Under the pieces are notes generated by a model. The model saw nothing but the letters and a program-made list of their open reading frames with translations. It searched no databases and was not told where the DNA came from. Below, one piece after another: positions 48,849 through 57,418 of a DNA stretch of 64,000 nucleotides (within the stretch, counting starts at the first letter, position 1; each line of letters starts with the position of its first letter). The DNA comes from Oscillospiraceae bacterium (GTDB lineage Bacteria > Bacillota > Clostridia > Oscillospirales > SIG627). The stretch is taken from assembly GCA_015063985.1 (NCBI GenBank), contig SVTC01000001.1:108311-172310 (forward strand), written 5' to 3'. The position numbers and the translations under genes were made by a program.

Positions 48849-50119
48849 CAGTGTTTTTTCAGTGAGTCTATTACCTCGGAATACATATACAGCGAGCCTA
48901 AGCAAAGCAGGGCTCGGTTTTCTTTTTTTGCCTCCGAAACGGCTTTTTTTACCGCCTCGTCCACGGTATCGAAGCCTTCGGCGCATATATCGTTTTCTCT
49001 GAAGACCTTTGCGTACTCCTCTGCCTTGAGGCTTCGGGGGTTGTCGGGAGTGATGCAGAACACCTTTGAGGCTATGCCGCTTATTTTTTTTGCCATGTAG
49101 CGATAGTCCTTGTCTGCCATAACGCCCGTTAAGACCAGGAGCTTTTCGTTTTTAAAGTAGAGCTTGGTGCTTTCCACGGCGGCATCTATTCCCTGGGGAT
49201 TGTGACCACCGTCACAGATCACGATTGGGGAGTCCTGCACCTTCTCGTATCTTGCGTGCCATACCGTTGAGGCTATTCCATCCTTTACGGCACTGTTGGA
49301 AATATCAAATCCTTTGACCTTGAGCAGCTTTATTGCGGCAAGGACGTTTTCAAGATTGTTCACCTGATAGCTTCCGAGAAGGGGGAGAGTTATTTCGCCA
49401 AGCTCCTCGGACCTTAAGGTGGTATGGCTGAGCTCAAAGGAGATAGGCGTAAGCTCGCTTCTGTTGGGAATATGCATCCTTGCATTTTCCGCTTTTGCCT
49501 TTTCTCTTATGACTCCTTCGGCTTCGGGGCTGTCTCCGCACCAGAGCAGATCACAGCCTTCTTTTATGATTCCCGCTTTTTCTGCGGCGATCTTTTCCTC
49601 GGTGTCGCCCAAAAAGGCAGCGTGATCTATGGCAATGCCCGTTATTACTCCGAGAAGGGGAGAGGGGATGACGTTGGTGGAGTCCAGCCTTCCGCCCATT
49701 CCGCACTCCAGCACCACTACGTCGCATTCCTCTTGGCTGAAATAGTCCATCGCAAGAGCGGTGATGAGCTCGAATTCCGTGGGATGGTCCTCCATCTTCT
49801 CGGCGAGAGGACGTATTTTTTCGGTGAGTGCGGCAAGGGTATCGTCGGGAATATCATTTCCGTTTATCTTCATTCTTTCGTTGAAGCGCAGAATATAGGG
49901 AGAGGTGTACGTGCCAACCTTGTACCCCGCTTTTGTGAGCACGGAGGAGAGCATAGAGCAAAAGGAGCCCTTTCCGTTTGTGCCCGCCACGTGTATGAAC
50001 CTCAGCTTGCTCTGAGGGTCACCCAAGGCCTTTAAAAGCTCACGGGTCCTGGAAAGCCCGGGCTTCGAGCCCTGCCAACAGTTTTTGTGGATGTACTCCA
50101 AGGCTTGTAGGTAGTTCAT
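48848..50119 (-). CDS. folC: Folylpolyglutamate synthase/dihydrofolate synthase
   Basis: FIHVAGTNGKGSFCSMLSSVLTKAGYKVGTYTSPYI, VVLECGMGGRLDSTNVI, DGGHNPQGIDA. Confidence 0.95.
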   Translation of the reverse strand: MNYLQALEYIHKNCWQGSKPGLSRTRELLKALGDPQSKLRFIHVAGTNGKGSFCSMLSSVLTKAGYKVGTYTSPYILRFNERMKINGNDIPDDTLAALTEKIRPLAEKMEDHPTEFELITALAMDYFSQEECDVVVLECGMGGRLDSTNVIPSPLLGVITGIAIDHAAFLGDTEEKIAAEKAGIIKEGCDLLWCGDSPEAEGVIREKAKAENARMHIPNRSELTPISFELSHTTLRSEELGEITLPLLGSYQVNNLENVLAAIKLLKVKGFDISNSAVKDGIASTVWHARYEKVQDSPIVICDGGHNPQGIDAAVESTKLYFKNEKLLVLTGVMADKDYRYMAKKISGIASKVFCITPDNPRSLKAEEYAKVFRENDICAEGFDTVDEAVKKAVSEAKKENRALLCLGSLYMYSEVIDSLKKH

Positions 50120-50652
50120 TTTTTCTCCTTTGCGGTGATTTTTCCAAGCTCTTTTGTGAAGGCTTTGTTCTTGCCGAGAAAATATAACACTCCCGCCTCC
50201 GCAACGGCGGTGATAAGATATATTCCCGCTCTTAAAAGCAATGTGGCAAAAAAGGGCGAGCCGTAGAATATTACTATTCCCAGAGTCTTGAGCGCCACAG
50301 AGCCGATCAGGTGCCCTGCAAGGACTGCAAATACAGCCTTTGCCGCGGCGTGGTCCTTTGCACATTTTGCCGCTATTCCGCCGCAAAGCCCCACCGCTGC
50401 GGCTCCTAAGGTTATCAATGGGTTTATGGCATAGCCCACAAGAATGCATCCCACAAGGTCTGCCACGGTCGCTACCGCGGCGGCGGGGATGGGTCCTAAG
50501 TATATGGCGGCAATAAGTATCGGCAGATTCTCAAAGCTTATTCTGAAGCTTTGGGTTATGTTGATAGCCAGATACTTGCCCAGAATAATGCTCAGTGCCG
50601 CCAAAAGGGCACAAATGCTGATGTATATCAGCCCTTTTAAATTTTTGCTCAT
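50116..50652 (-). CDS. folT: Folate ECF transporter S component
   Basis: ~178 aa, multi-TM; FRISFENLPILIAAIYLGPIPAAAVATVADLVGCIL; next to folC and downstream of a THF riboswitch-like leader. Confidence 0.85.
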   Translation of the reverse strand: MSKNLKGLIYISICALLAALSIILGKYLAINITQSFRISFENLPILIAAIYLGPIPAAAVATVADLVGCILVGYAINPLITLGAAAVGLCGGIAAKCAKDHAAAKAVFAVLAGHLIGSVALKTLGIVIFYGSPFFATLLLRAGIYLITAVAEAGVLYFLGKNKAFTKELGKITAKEKK

Positions 50653-50716
50653 AAATATAAAAACCTCCTTTGCAGATGATCTACGGCCGCAAAAGAGGAC
50701 AAAAGTTCCTTATGTG

Positions 50717-50813
50717 GCAGCGGGATGCGAAGCCTCGACCGCAAGAATACTTTTCGTCCGCCCGTCAACTCCCCGTACGAGGCGGCACTTAACGCCGATG
50801 CTTCTACTCTGCT
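50717..50813 (-). promoter_or_regulatory. THF riboswitch-like leader of folT-folC
   Basis: Minus strand: GCAGAGTAGAAGCATCGGCGTTAAGTGCCGCC...CGGTCGAGGCTTCGCATCCCGCTGC resembles the THF riboswitch consensus (GAGUAGA...GCGUUAAGUG...GCAUCCGCUC). Confidence 0.8.
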
Positions 50814-54831: not shown

Positions 54832-54971
54832 CAAGGCTCCCACTTCGGGGGAGCTGTCAGCGAAGCTGACTGAGAGGGCGAAAAACTAAAGAAGTGCTCA
54901 AACTCGAAAATTGCAAAATAAACTAGCCCTCTCCGACGCCGATGGCGCCACCTCTCCCAAAGGGCGAGGCT
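54832..54971. repeat. Palindromic-arm element copy 1 (short, non-coding core)
   Basis: CAAGGCTCCCACTTCGGGGGAGCTGTCAGCGAAGCTGACTGAGAGGG ... GCCCTCTCCG.CGCCGATGGCGCCACCTCTCCCAAAGGGCGAGGCT. Confidence 0.85.
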
Positions 54972-55050
54972 AAAGATAGTAGTATATAATTATACCATTG
55001 TCAGCATAAAATTGCAAGATTGGTCTCTGTAAGCAATGTAAGTACAACTC

Positions 55051-55191
55051 CAAGGCTCCCACTTCGGGGGAGCTGTCAGCGAAGCTGACTGAGAGGGCAA
55101 AAAACTAAAGAAGTGCTCAAACTTCAAAACTGCAAAATAAAGCAGCCCCTCTCCGTCGCCGATGGCGCCACCTCTCCCAAAGGGCGAGGCT
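55051..55191. repeat. Palindromic-arm element copy 2 (short, non-coding core)
   Basis: Same arms and ~50-nt core as copy 1; flanking 80-nt linker also conserved. Confidence 0.85.
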
Positions 55192-55277
55192 AAAGATAGT
55201 TATATAAAATTATACCATTGTCAGCATAAAATTGCAAGATTGATATAATACCTCTGTAAGCAATGTAAGCACAACTC

Positions 55278-55753
55278 CAAGGCTCCCACTTTGGGGGAGC
55301 TGTCAGCGAAGCTGACTGAGAGGGTTTTAGACAAGCTTTGATAATCTTTCTTTAATCTTTTTGTCGATAGAATCACATACTTCGTTAAAGTTGCTGTCAA
55401 TATCTCTATTTGAAAATCGAATAACTTCTAATTGGTATTGCTCAAGTGTTTTGGTTCTTATTTTGTCATACTCCATTCCTTTATCGGTATAGTGTTGAGA
55501 ACCATCAATTTCGATTACAAGTTTGGCTTTGTGGCAATAAAAATCAGAAATATAGTTATCAATTATTCTTTGTTTATATATCTTCATTGGATAATACCGT
55601 AGATAATCATACCATAGTCTTTTTTCTTGAGGTGTCATATTACGGCGTAATATTCTTGCGATATTTAATAGAGTATGGTTCTTTTTAATTCTTTCTTTAT
55701 TCATTTGGCCCTCTCCGTCGCCGATGGCGCCACCTCTCCCAAAGGGCGAGGCT
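55278..55753. mobile_element. Palindromic-arm element copy 3 carrying DUF559-like endonuclease gene
   Basis: Same left arm (55278-55324) and right arm (55708-55753) as copies 1/2, enclosing ORF 55327..55704. Confidence 0.65.
55327..55704 (-). CDS. DUF559-like (Vsr/PD-(D/E)XK-type) endonuclease domain protein
   Basis: MTPQEKRLWYDYLRYYPMKIYKQRIIDNYISDFYCHKAKLVIEIDGSQHYTDKGMEYDKIRTKTLEQYQLEVIRFSN matches DUF559 pattern; GGAGAGGG SD lies inside the right arm. Confidence 0.85.
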   Translation of the reverse strand: MNKERIKKNHTLLNIARILRRNMTPQEKRLWYDYLRYYPMKIYKQRIIDNYISDFYCHKAKLVIEIDGSQHYTDKGMEYDKIRTKTLEQYQLEVIRFSNRDIDSNFNEVCDSIDKKIKERLSKLV

Positions 55754-55840
55754 AAAGATAGTTATATAAAAATTATACCATTGTCAGCAAAAAATTGCAA
55801 GATTGATATAGTACCTCTGTAAGCAATGTAAGTACAACTC

Positions 55841-55956
55841 CAAGGCTCCCACTTCGGGGGAGCTGTCAGCGAAGCTGACTGAGAGGGCAAAAAACTAAAG
55901 AAGTGCTTAAACTCCAAAATTGCAAAATAAACTAGCCCTCTCCGTCGCCGATGGCG
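55841..55956. repeat. Palindromic-arm element copy 4 (right arm truncated)
   Basis: Left arm and core intact; right arm ends at GCCGATGGCG then diverges. Confidence 0.8.
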
Positions 55957-55989
55957 TCTCATCGATTATCAAAAAACGATGGGCTTAGT

Positions 55990-56166
55990 GAAAGAAACCC
56001 ATCGTTTACTGTGTGTTGCAAAATCTATCGACATTAAAAGTATTTTGCCTTCTTTTTTTCAAAAAGGTACAGATATAACAACGCAAAGTAACCCATCGAC
56101 CGATATGTTCGCTCTAACCGTCACCGACATTAAAAGTTTTTTGCCTACTTTTTTTCAAAAAGGTGG
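55990..56166 (-). repeat. Two tandem copies of the ~100-nt ACTTTTTTTCAAAAAGGT-containing dispersed repeat
   Basis: ACATTAAAAGTATTTTGCCTTCTTTTTTTCAAAAAGGTAC and ACATTAAAAGTTTTTTGCCTACTTTTTTTCAAAAAGGTGG; third copy inverted at 15681-15780. Confidence 0.7.
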
Positions 56167-56173
56167 AAAAAAA

Positions 56174-57418
56174 TCAAGCTAAAACCCGTTCAAGAGCCGT
56201 CATAACTCCGATCTTGCCGCTTTCGTAGGTAAGACCGCCCTGCATAAATACAACGTAAGGCTCTCTTGCGGGTGCATCTGCACTTAGCTCAATGCTTGCG
56301 CCGCTTACGAAGGTGCCTGCAGCCATAATAACCTGATCGTCGTAGCCGGGCATATCCCAGAACTCGGGTGTTACAAAGCTGTCGATGGGACTTCCCGCCT
56401 GGATCCCTTGGCAGAACCTTTCTATTGCTTCCTTGCTTCCAAGGTCGAATGCCTGGATTATATCAAGCCTTGTTTCACTGTAATGGGGCAGTGGCTTAAA
56501 GCCTGCCTTTTCAAAGAGGGCGGCGGCGAACACCGCGGTCTTTAGTGCCTGGCTGACAACGTGGGGGGCAAAGAATAAGCCCTTGTACATATTCTCGTTT
56601 TGTCCCAAGGTGGCACCGCATTCAAGGCCCGTTCCTGGGCAGGTAAATCTGTAGGAGCAAAGCTCTATGGCTTTTTTTGAGCCTGCGAGGTATCCTCCGC
56701 TTTGAGCTATACCGCCGCCTGCATTTTTTATAAGAGAGCCCACACAGAGGTCTGCACCGTAATAGCAGGGCTCGTGCTCCTCGCAAAATTCGCCGTAGCA
56801 GTTGTCGACGAATACAAAAACGTCATTCTTAACGCTTTTTGCCGCCTTTACAAGCTCGCCTATCTCTGCGTTTGTGATGGTTCTTCTTGAGGAATAACCT
56901 CTGCTCTTCTGGACGTAAACTACCTTTGTGGCGGAATTTATAGCATTCTTTACTGCTTCAAGGTCTATAGTCTCTTCCTTTGTCAGATCAACCTGGCGGT
57001 ATTTTACACCGAAATCACTAAGGCTGCCGTCGCCTGTGGTCTTGGATATTCCTATTACCTTGTCAAGGGTGTCGTAGGGCTTTCCTGCCACACTGAGAAG
57101 CTCGTCTCCGGGGCGCAAAAGTCCGAATAGACCTATGGTCAGTGCGTGGGTGCCGCTGACAATATTGTGCCTTGCAAATGCCGCTTCGGCTTCGAATACC
57201 TGAGCGTATACAAGATCCAAAATCTCCCTGCCTCTGTCGTTGTAGCCGTAGCCGGTGCTTGAGCCGAGACATTCGGCACTGACACGGTTGTCGCTGAATG
57301 CCTTGAGGACCTTGTATTGGTTTTTAAAGGCTACGTCCTCAATATATTTAAATTGTTCCTTTATTTCTTCCTCTGCTATTTTTGCAAGCTCGAGAGTTCT
57401 TTGTGAGAAGTTTGTCAT
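56174..57418 (-). CDS. Methionine gamma-lyase family / aluminum-resistance-like PLP enzyme
   Basis: SSTGYGYNDRGREILDLVYAQVFEAEAAFARHNIVSGTHALTIGLFGLLRPGDELLSV; lysine in GSLIKNAGGG. Confidence 0.85.
   Translation of the reverse strand: MTNFSQRTLELAKIAEEEIKEQFKYIEDVAFKNQYKVLKAFSDNRVSAECLGSSTGYGYNDRGREILDLVYAQVFEAEAAFARHNIVSGTHALTIGLFGLLRPGDELLSVAGKPYDTLDKVIGISKTTGDGSLSDFGVKYRQVDLTKEETIDLEAVKNAINSATKVVYVQKSRGYSSRRTITNAEIGELVKAAKSVKNDVFVFVDNCYGEFCEEHEPCYYGADLCVGSLIKNAGGGIAQSGGYLAGSKKAIELCSYRFTCPGTGLECGATLGQNENMYKGLFFAPHVVSQALKTAVFAAALFEKAGFKPLPHYSETRLDIIQAFDLGSKEAIERFCQGIQAGSPIDSFVTPEFWDMPGYDDQVIMAAGTFVSGASIELSADAPAREPYVVFMQGGLTYESGKIGVMTALERVLA

Follow-up and report, generated by a model that had tools for sequence, protein, structure and literature searches.

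Genes for DUF559 proteins, a common family of uncertain role, are paired across many bacterial phyla, E. coli included, with inverted DNA arms that are predicted to fold into intrastrand triplexes. The pairing is described here from a 64,000-nt stretch of an Oscillospiraceae genome (contig SVTC01000001.1, hereafter the window), in which one such gene lies between an upstream arm (LE) and a downstream arm (RE) of a tandem array. Gene and arms probably constitute a REPIN/RAYT-like two-component element that works with a Vsr-fold nuclease and triplex-forming ends.

The array in the window and its DUF559 gene

The array comprises four left arms, three complete right arms and one truncated right arm (Table 1), and the arm pattern is matched four times in the window against 0.48 matches expected, which is more than chance. 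A sequence-only reading of this DNA had described four tandem units spaced by 219, 227 and 563 nt, two hairpins in every arm and a conserved linker of ~80 nt, all of which were recovered; the linkers share 73-82 identical positions out of 85-86. Its further claim of an inverted right arm in all units holds for units 1-3, where that arm is complete, but not for unit 4, where it is cut off at ~55957. Every linker carries a promoter-like site on the minus strand, reading into the right arm. The tail of the LE arm of the gene-bearing unit, GGAGAGGG, mirrors the 3′ strand of hairpin 1 at 8/8 positions and, as read from the sequence, doubles as a Shine-Dalgarno element (55709-55716) 4 nt before the ATG. 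No Rfam family matched at the array locus.

Table 1. Arms, gene and promoter-like sites of the array (window positions; bit scores of arms from covariance model R1)
Feature	Position	Strand	Remarks
RE arm, short unit 1	54833..54881	+	56.2 bits
LE arm, short unit 1	54924..54972	-	41 bits
Promoter-like TTGCAA-17-TATAAT, linker 1-2	54989..55017	-	TG before second hexamer
RE arm, short unit 2	55052..55100	+	54.7 bits
LE arm, short unit 2	55144..55192	-	46.5 bits
Promoter-like TTGCAA-17-TATAAT, linker 2-3	55209..55237	-	
RE arm, downstream of DUF559 gene	55279..55327	+	Abuts TAA stop; hairpin 1 GCTCCCAC-TTT-GGGGGAGC; hairpin 2 GTCAGC-GAA-GCTGAC; tail TGAGAGGG
DUF559 endonuclease gene, 125 aa	55327..55704	-	PF04480, 94.6 bits (cut-off 20.6)
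LE arm, upstream of DUF559 gene	55706..55754	-	Right arm of unit 3; hairpin 1 CCTCGCCC-TTT-GGGAGAGG; hairpin 2; tail GGAGAGGG
Promoter-like TTGCAA-17-TATAAT, linker 3-4	55772..55800	-	Reads into LE arm and DUF559 gene
RE arm, short unit 4	55842..55890	+	54.7 bits
Truncated LE arm, short unit 4	55934..55957	-	Reduced to tail and part of hairpin 2; read from sequence

The ORF of unit 3, taken from its letters to be DUF559-like, matches the PF04480 model well above the cut-off. Residues D54, E65, D67 and H71 are invariant across 36 homologues, and the AlphaFold (AF2) model (pLDDT 92) has a Vsr/EDxHD-like fold with the conserved E-x-D and H; among solved folds, Foldseek ranks NGO0050 (3hrl) and the homing endonuclease I-Bth0305I (3r3p) as nearest and Vsr lower. 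In the protein's own clade (98% support), all detected arms end in GAGAGGG. A defence-system assignment was dropped, as PADLOC returned weak matches only, and a search for virus-borne copies found no close relative in viral contigs.

Two neighboring features were recorded. A second repeat, CGACATTAAAAGTWTTTTGCCTNCTTTTTTTCAAAAAGGT, occurs in two copies to the right of the array (56029-56081 and 56125-56177), and a similar stretch also adjoins an arm at G000 C10:71364. A THF riboswitch (RF01831, 80.8 bits) occupies 50716-50813 on the minus strand, apparently upstream of a membrane-protein ORF (50116-50652, minus strand).

Arms, cassettes and the stem-tail code

An order-level sample of 394 genomes, 120 of them with PF04480, was used to examine DUF559 genes elsewhere. 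Inverted matches scoring at least 14 were sought within 240 nt on either side of 81 DUF559 ORFs, with controls from the same loci. An inverted arm pair was found on both sides of 42/81 ORFs versus 1/1600 control positions, the former being an underestimate because the window's own diverged arm pair scores below the threshold. DUF559 genes elsewhere are thus framed by the same kind of arms, and the case named in the sequence-only reading as fatal to its proposal, that of no association with these arms, is excluded. Covariance model R1 placed inward-facing arms upstream of 54/77 Bacillota genes, downstream of 54/77 and on both sides of 45, versus 16 and 18 arms in the wrong orientations; these counts are partly by construction because R1 was trained on DUF559-adjacent arms. 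The inverted-match test (42/81) and the triplex-detector counts given below for YcjD-family genes (178 motifs) are independent of those training arms. Arms went undetected by the covariance model at 14/77 genes.

Arms occur in 107/120 genomes with DUF559 and in 105/274 without, phylogeny not being corrected for and arm numbers per genome in this sample, counted up to ~14, being lower bounds. Arm class follows the protein tree, with 14 class changes against a minimum of 27 after shuffling; co-variation of arm and protein phylogenies was one of the checks put forward in the sequence-only reading. The arms could instead be mobile repeats that belong to a different, unlinked transposase and gather beside DUF559 by happenstance. 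The many genomes that have arms but no DUF559 gene accord with this explanation, as do some short elements nested in longer repeats, but we judge it improbable given the strong enrichment of triplex motifs beside DUF559, the inward orientation of the arms, the stop codon and Shine-Dalgarno element inside them and the match between arm class and protein tree. One DUF559 clade (L024, L044, L050, L055) has differently ordered arms, CACCCTCTTT..AAAGAGGG beside a GC-rich hairpin, which may represent a third architecture.

The arm-ORF-arm unit spans ~450 nt. Boundaries were examined with BLAST alignments spanning the gene and both arms at 20 loci, where 61/80 between-locus alignments start no more than 7 nt from the outer LE edge, 57/80 stop equally close to the outer RE edge and 47 do both, the pairs not being independent. 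Longer alignments fall mostly inside clades of near relatives. Because homology between unrelated loci often ends at the outer arm edges, comparison of these sequences establishes arm-ORF-arm as a discrete cassette found in different contexts. Its ends are polar: in the commonest class, a C-G pair closes hairpin 1 of LE, followed by TGGC...CGGAGGG, and a G-C pair closes that of RE, followed by TGTC...CTGAGGG. In many copies, the RE arm extends into the ORF and supplies the C-terminus and stop, and in the YcjD family it encodes the common C-terminal PSP.

In every arm, the inner purine tail repeats the purine strand of hairpin 1 in mirror order. Stem 1 covaries, with 7/8 pairs changed on both sides and 98% of cells paired, and the tail follows a triplex code (G*GC, A or T*AT, T*CG) at 92% of positions, compared with 68% when shuffled. 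Compliance at 7/8 or more was observed for 86% of 77 stem/tail combinations versus 20% of shuffled ones, and a strong signal (z 15) arises for the mirror arrangement at offset 0 alone. Tallied over 50 distinct combinations, which are not independent because arms within a subfamily are related, pair 1 shows C-G with tail G (19/23), G-C with T (21/23) and T-A with A (1/1); pair 3, T-A with A (44/45) and C-G with G (4/4); pair 7, C-G with G (26/27) and T-A with A (22/22); and pair 8, C-G with G (29/30) and T-A with T (17/19). The triads of class II, purine-motif triplexes comprise G*GC, A*AT and T*AT (PMC4666352). In a triplex, T suits a C-G inversion. Purine-rich composition and shared subfamily ancestry might produce a tail-stem mirror as a by-product, and arms of one subfamily are indeed related; this account is nevertheless very hard to credit, since swapping tails between arms lowers compliance from 92% to 68%, offset 0 alone scores, and pair-1 changes among C-G, G-C and T-A go with tail G, T and A.

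The window arms are ordered as in class II, with a purine tail that lies 3′ of a pyrimidine-purine hairpin and mirrors that hairpin's purine strand, which suggests that they would fold as triplexes. They depart from the TM_ECO consensus, with its 3-nt second loop, by having the 16-nt hairpin 2 instead. The published triplex survey permitted second loops of only 1-6 nt (PMC4666352), so hairpin-connected arms would presumably have been missed. In two arms (L026:1984-2107 and L041:1858-1967), hairpin 2 is enlarged to ~60-100 nt with stem 1 and tail kept; neither the sequence nor the length of hairpin 2 seems constrained. The mirror relation of tail and stem, the end polarity and the architecture held in common with BoxC/PIT/TM repeats had all escaped the sequence-only reading.

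As purine-motif triplexes are reported not to form in RNA (PMC4666352), DNA would be the folding molecule. The same observation bears on the possibility that the arms are RNA leaders or terminators controlling DUF559 expression, for which it can be said that the LE arm would be transcribed as a leader with the Shine-Dalgarno element in its tail. PIT elements are reported to lack promoter and terminator activity (PMC4666352), and hundreds of copies have no gene to control, making this a doubtful explanation of low probability.

Gene-less elements and the BoxC/PIT repeats of E. coli

The window's genome contains 27 arms by the covariance model (a fixed-spacing pattern scan undercounts them by comparison) but one DUF559 gene. 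Most are facing pairs around short cores, spread over several contigs, and these carry the same two end types as the DUF559 cassette. The proposal that the short units form a dispersed MITE-like family was borne out to this extent, the pairs being REPIN-like; their derivation by simple deletion was not. Cores of the window's short units are 86-90% alike among themselves and do not resemble the ORF, so an internal-deletion origin is not supported, and several elements of this genome belong to arm classes other than that of its sole DUF559 gene. Short pairs in G000 C19, C42 and C7 (L086-L093) are nested in a longer repeat, gcccaccgaaacatttgacacttgc ... ccgctactgcgggattgctc, and this is a nested or compound element.

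BoxC/PIT repeats (TM_ECO) have been known since the 1990s, mark unstable loci and have had no known protein partner or origin, no mobility gene having been reported near them (PMC4666352). Strain MG1655 has 23 TM_ECO motifs, including five inverted pairs that always join one type A and one type B motif; triplexes of BoxC oligonucleotides have been obtained in vitro, and in vivo DMS footprinting did not support a stable chromosomal triplex (PMC4666352). YcjD of K-12 is a DUF559 protein, the ycjD stop codon lies inside a BoxC remnant, and TM_ECO no. 9 is located just downstream. DUF559 is thus a candidate for the long-missing partner of these repeats, and connecting the two provides each with a function that can be tested in E. 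coli K-12, which has ycjD and ~20 repeats.

A set of 80 YcjD relatives was assembled from Enterobacteriaceae, Xanthomonadales genera, Alphaproteobacteria, Melainabacteria, Methylomirabilota and Marinimicrobia, and triplex motifs were called by a sequence-free detector. A motif lies within 250 nt of the gene in 75/80 and was undetected at 5/80. The detector found 178 motifs in the 45 kb beside these genes versus 13 in 381 kb farther off (3.95 versus 0.034 per kb, 116-fold) and none in shuffled flanks; for Bacillota DUF559 genes, the figures are 120 in 43 kb versus 25 in 196 kb. Motifs beside ycjD relatives in Enterobacteriaceae conform to the TM_ECO consensus, and hairpin connectors in some arms of YcjD relatives provide a link to the Bacillota form. 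The gene occupies different contexts, between fabI and sapF in Escherichia and elsewhere in Enterobacter and Kluyvera; in Enterobacter and relatives, we take its neighbors to be hemW and yggN. Two relatives from Methylomirabilota and Melainabacteria MAGs (L166, L169) have an in-frame stop within the matched stretch. We give roughly even odds to the view that bacterial intrastrand-triplex repeats, both BoxC/PIT/TM and hairpin-connected Bacillota arms, form one non-autonomous superfamily whose autonomous member is the DUF559 cassette and whose ends are recognized through a single-stranded DNA triplex.

Presence of ycjD varies, with ~3334/5395 E. coli genomes carrying it. It is found in phylogroups A, B1 and C, with eefRABCD at that place in others (PMC12817139). 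The empty orthologous site looked for in the wake of the sequence-only reading was not found for E. coli ycjD, since strains lacking the gene carry the eef efflux operon between fabI and sapF. BoxC places per genome, counted with a combined BLAST query in a spread E. coli sample, had a median of 21 in ycjD+ strains (15-32, n=37) and 4 in ycjD- strains (1-20, n=23; p = 9e-10, Mann-Whitney, confounded by clonality and phylogroup). O157-like ycjD- strains retain 10-17 copies. The repeats are themselves polymorphic: the BoxC pair between hrpB and mrcB is, depending on the strain, present, represented by a solo hairpin or absent.

These counts also bear on a different role for DUF559, as a genome-maintenance nuclease, specific for structure, by which triplex repeats are trimmed or resolved, or as an autoregulated nuclease with the arms as operator, the repeats spreading otherwise. 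Such a role would suit the supply of the Shine-Dalgarno element and often the stop codon by the arms, the promoter-like site in every linker, and Caulobacter VsrA, a DUF559 protein that triggers the SOS response in methylase-free cells (PMC12907096); co-variation of arm class and protein would be needed for any recognition. We consider it unlikely, as cassette homology between unrelated loci often reaches no farther than the two outer arm edges, ycjD+ E. coli have more rather than fewer BoxC copies, and both end types are found in gene-less pairs too.

Proposed mechanism and relation to known systems

In the favored REPIN/RAYT-like reading, the minimal element would be a DUF559 gene (Vsr-fold, EDxHD-type) between inverted LE and RE arms. 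Each arm, when single-stranded, would form hairpin 1 and then a connector, which is hairpin 2 in Bacillota and 2-3 nt long in BoxC; the purine tail of the arm would lie as third strand in the major groove of hairpin 1 in a class II triplex. The nuclease may recognize folded arms of its own class in single-stranded DNA, for example the lagging-strand template, and nick at or beside them, after which host repair or replication would insert further cassettes and, in trans, further short elements, the role ascribed to RAYTs for REPINs. The tail of LE would double as ribosome-binding site, and the RE arm could provide the stop codon. Several points weigh against this reading and its putative mobile or homing-like mode: a Vsr-fold nuclease hydrolyzes DNA and cannot rejoin strands alone, the in vivo footprint gave a stable chromosomal triplex no support (PMC4666352), some DUF559 genes showed no arms, and arms occur in many genomes that lack DUF559.

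REPIN-RAYT systems offer the closest parallel in layout, with one gene between inverted palindromic ends, dispersed gene-less end pairs and one or few genes per genome; the dispersed inverted pairs and the gene flanked by the same ends are both found here. A RAYT is a Y1 HUH enzyme (TnpA_REP), and a REP end is a hairpin with a tetranucleotide, whereas the element described here has a Vsr-fold nuclease and an arm predicted to form a triplex. The window gene has matches to DUF559 and the Vsr fold alone and none to a Y1 HUH transposase, so that the element is not a REPIN-RAYT member, the defining enzyme being absent. I-Bth0305I and Vsr share the fold and similar catalytic residues with the window protein; to our knowledge, neither is framed by triplex arms. 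Vsr differs in repairing T:G mismatches and I-Bth0305I in being intron-encoded with extra DNA-binding regions (PMC3943268). A homing endonuclease gene would be expected to sit in its own cleavage target, an intron or an intein; what the compared loci show is homology that ends at the arm edges.

BoxC/PIT/TM_ECO repeats resemble the window family in their class II order of pyrimidine strand, purine strand and purine tail, in their inverted A-with-B pairs around a short core and in being intergenic and polymorphic between strains (PMC4666352). They differ from Bacillota arms in having a 3-nt second loop in place of a hairpin and in being reported without a mobility gene nearby (PMC4666352), for which DUF559 is proposed here as partner. 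If the reading is right, this kind of mobile element and its mode of end recognition have not been described before in the open-access full texts covered, and confirmed mobility would add to the prokaryotic elements a new class whose recognized end is a DNA triplex.

MITEs are comparable as short non-autonomous copies with the ends of a gene-bearing form, and IS200/IS605 elements as ones whose ends are read as single-stranded hairpins. Unlike both, the window element has no transposase, and no regular target-site duplication was found; outer direct repeats are present at 17/78 loci, many of them tandem arm copies. Two cassettes (L025 and L052) have long direct repeats outside their arms (56 and 67 nt) that resemble long target duplications or tandem-duplication scars.
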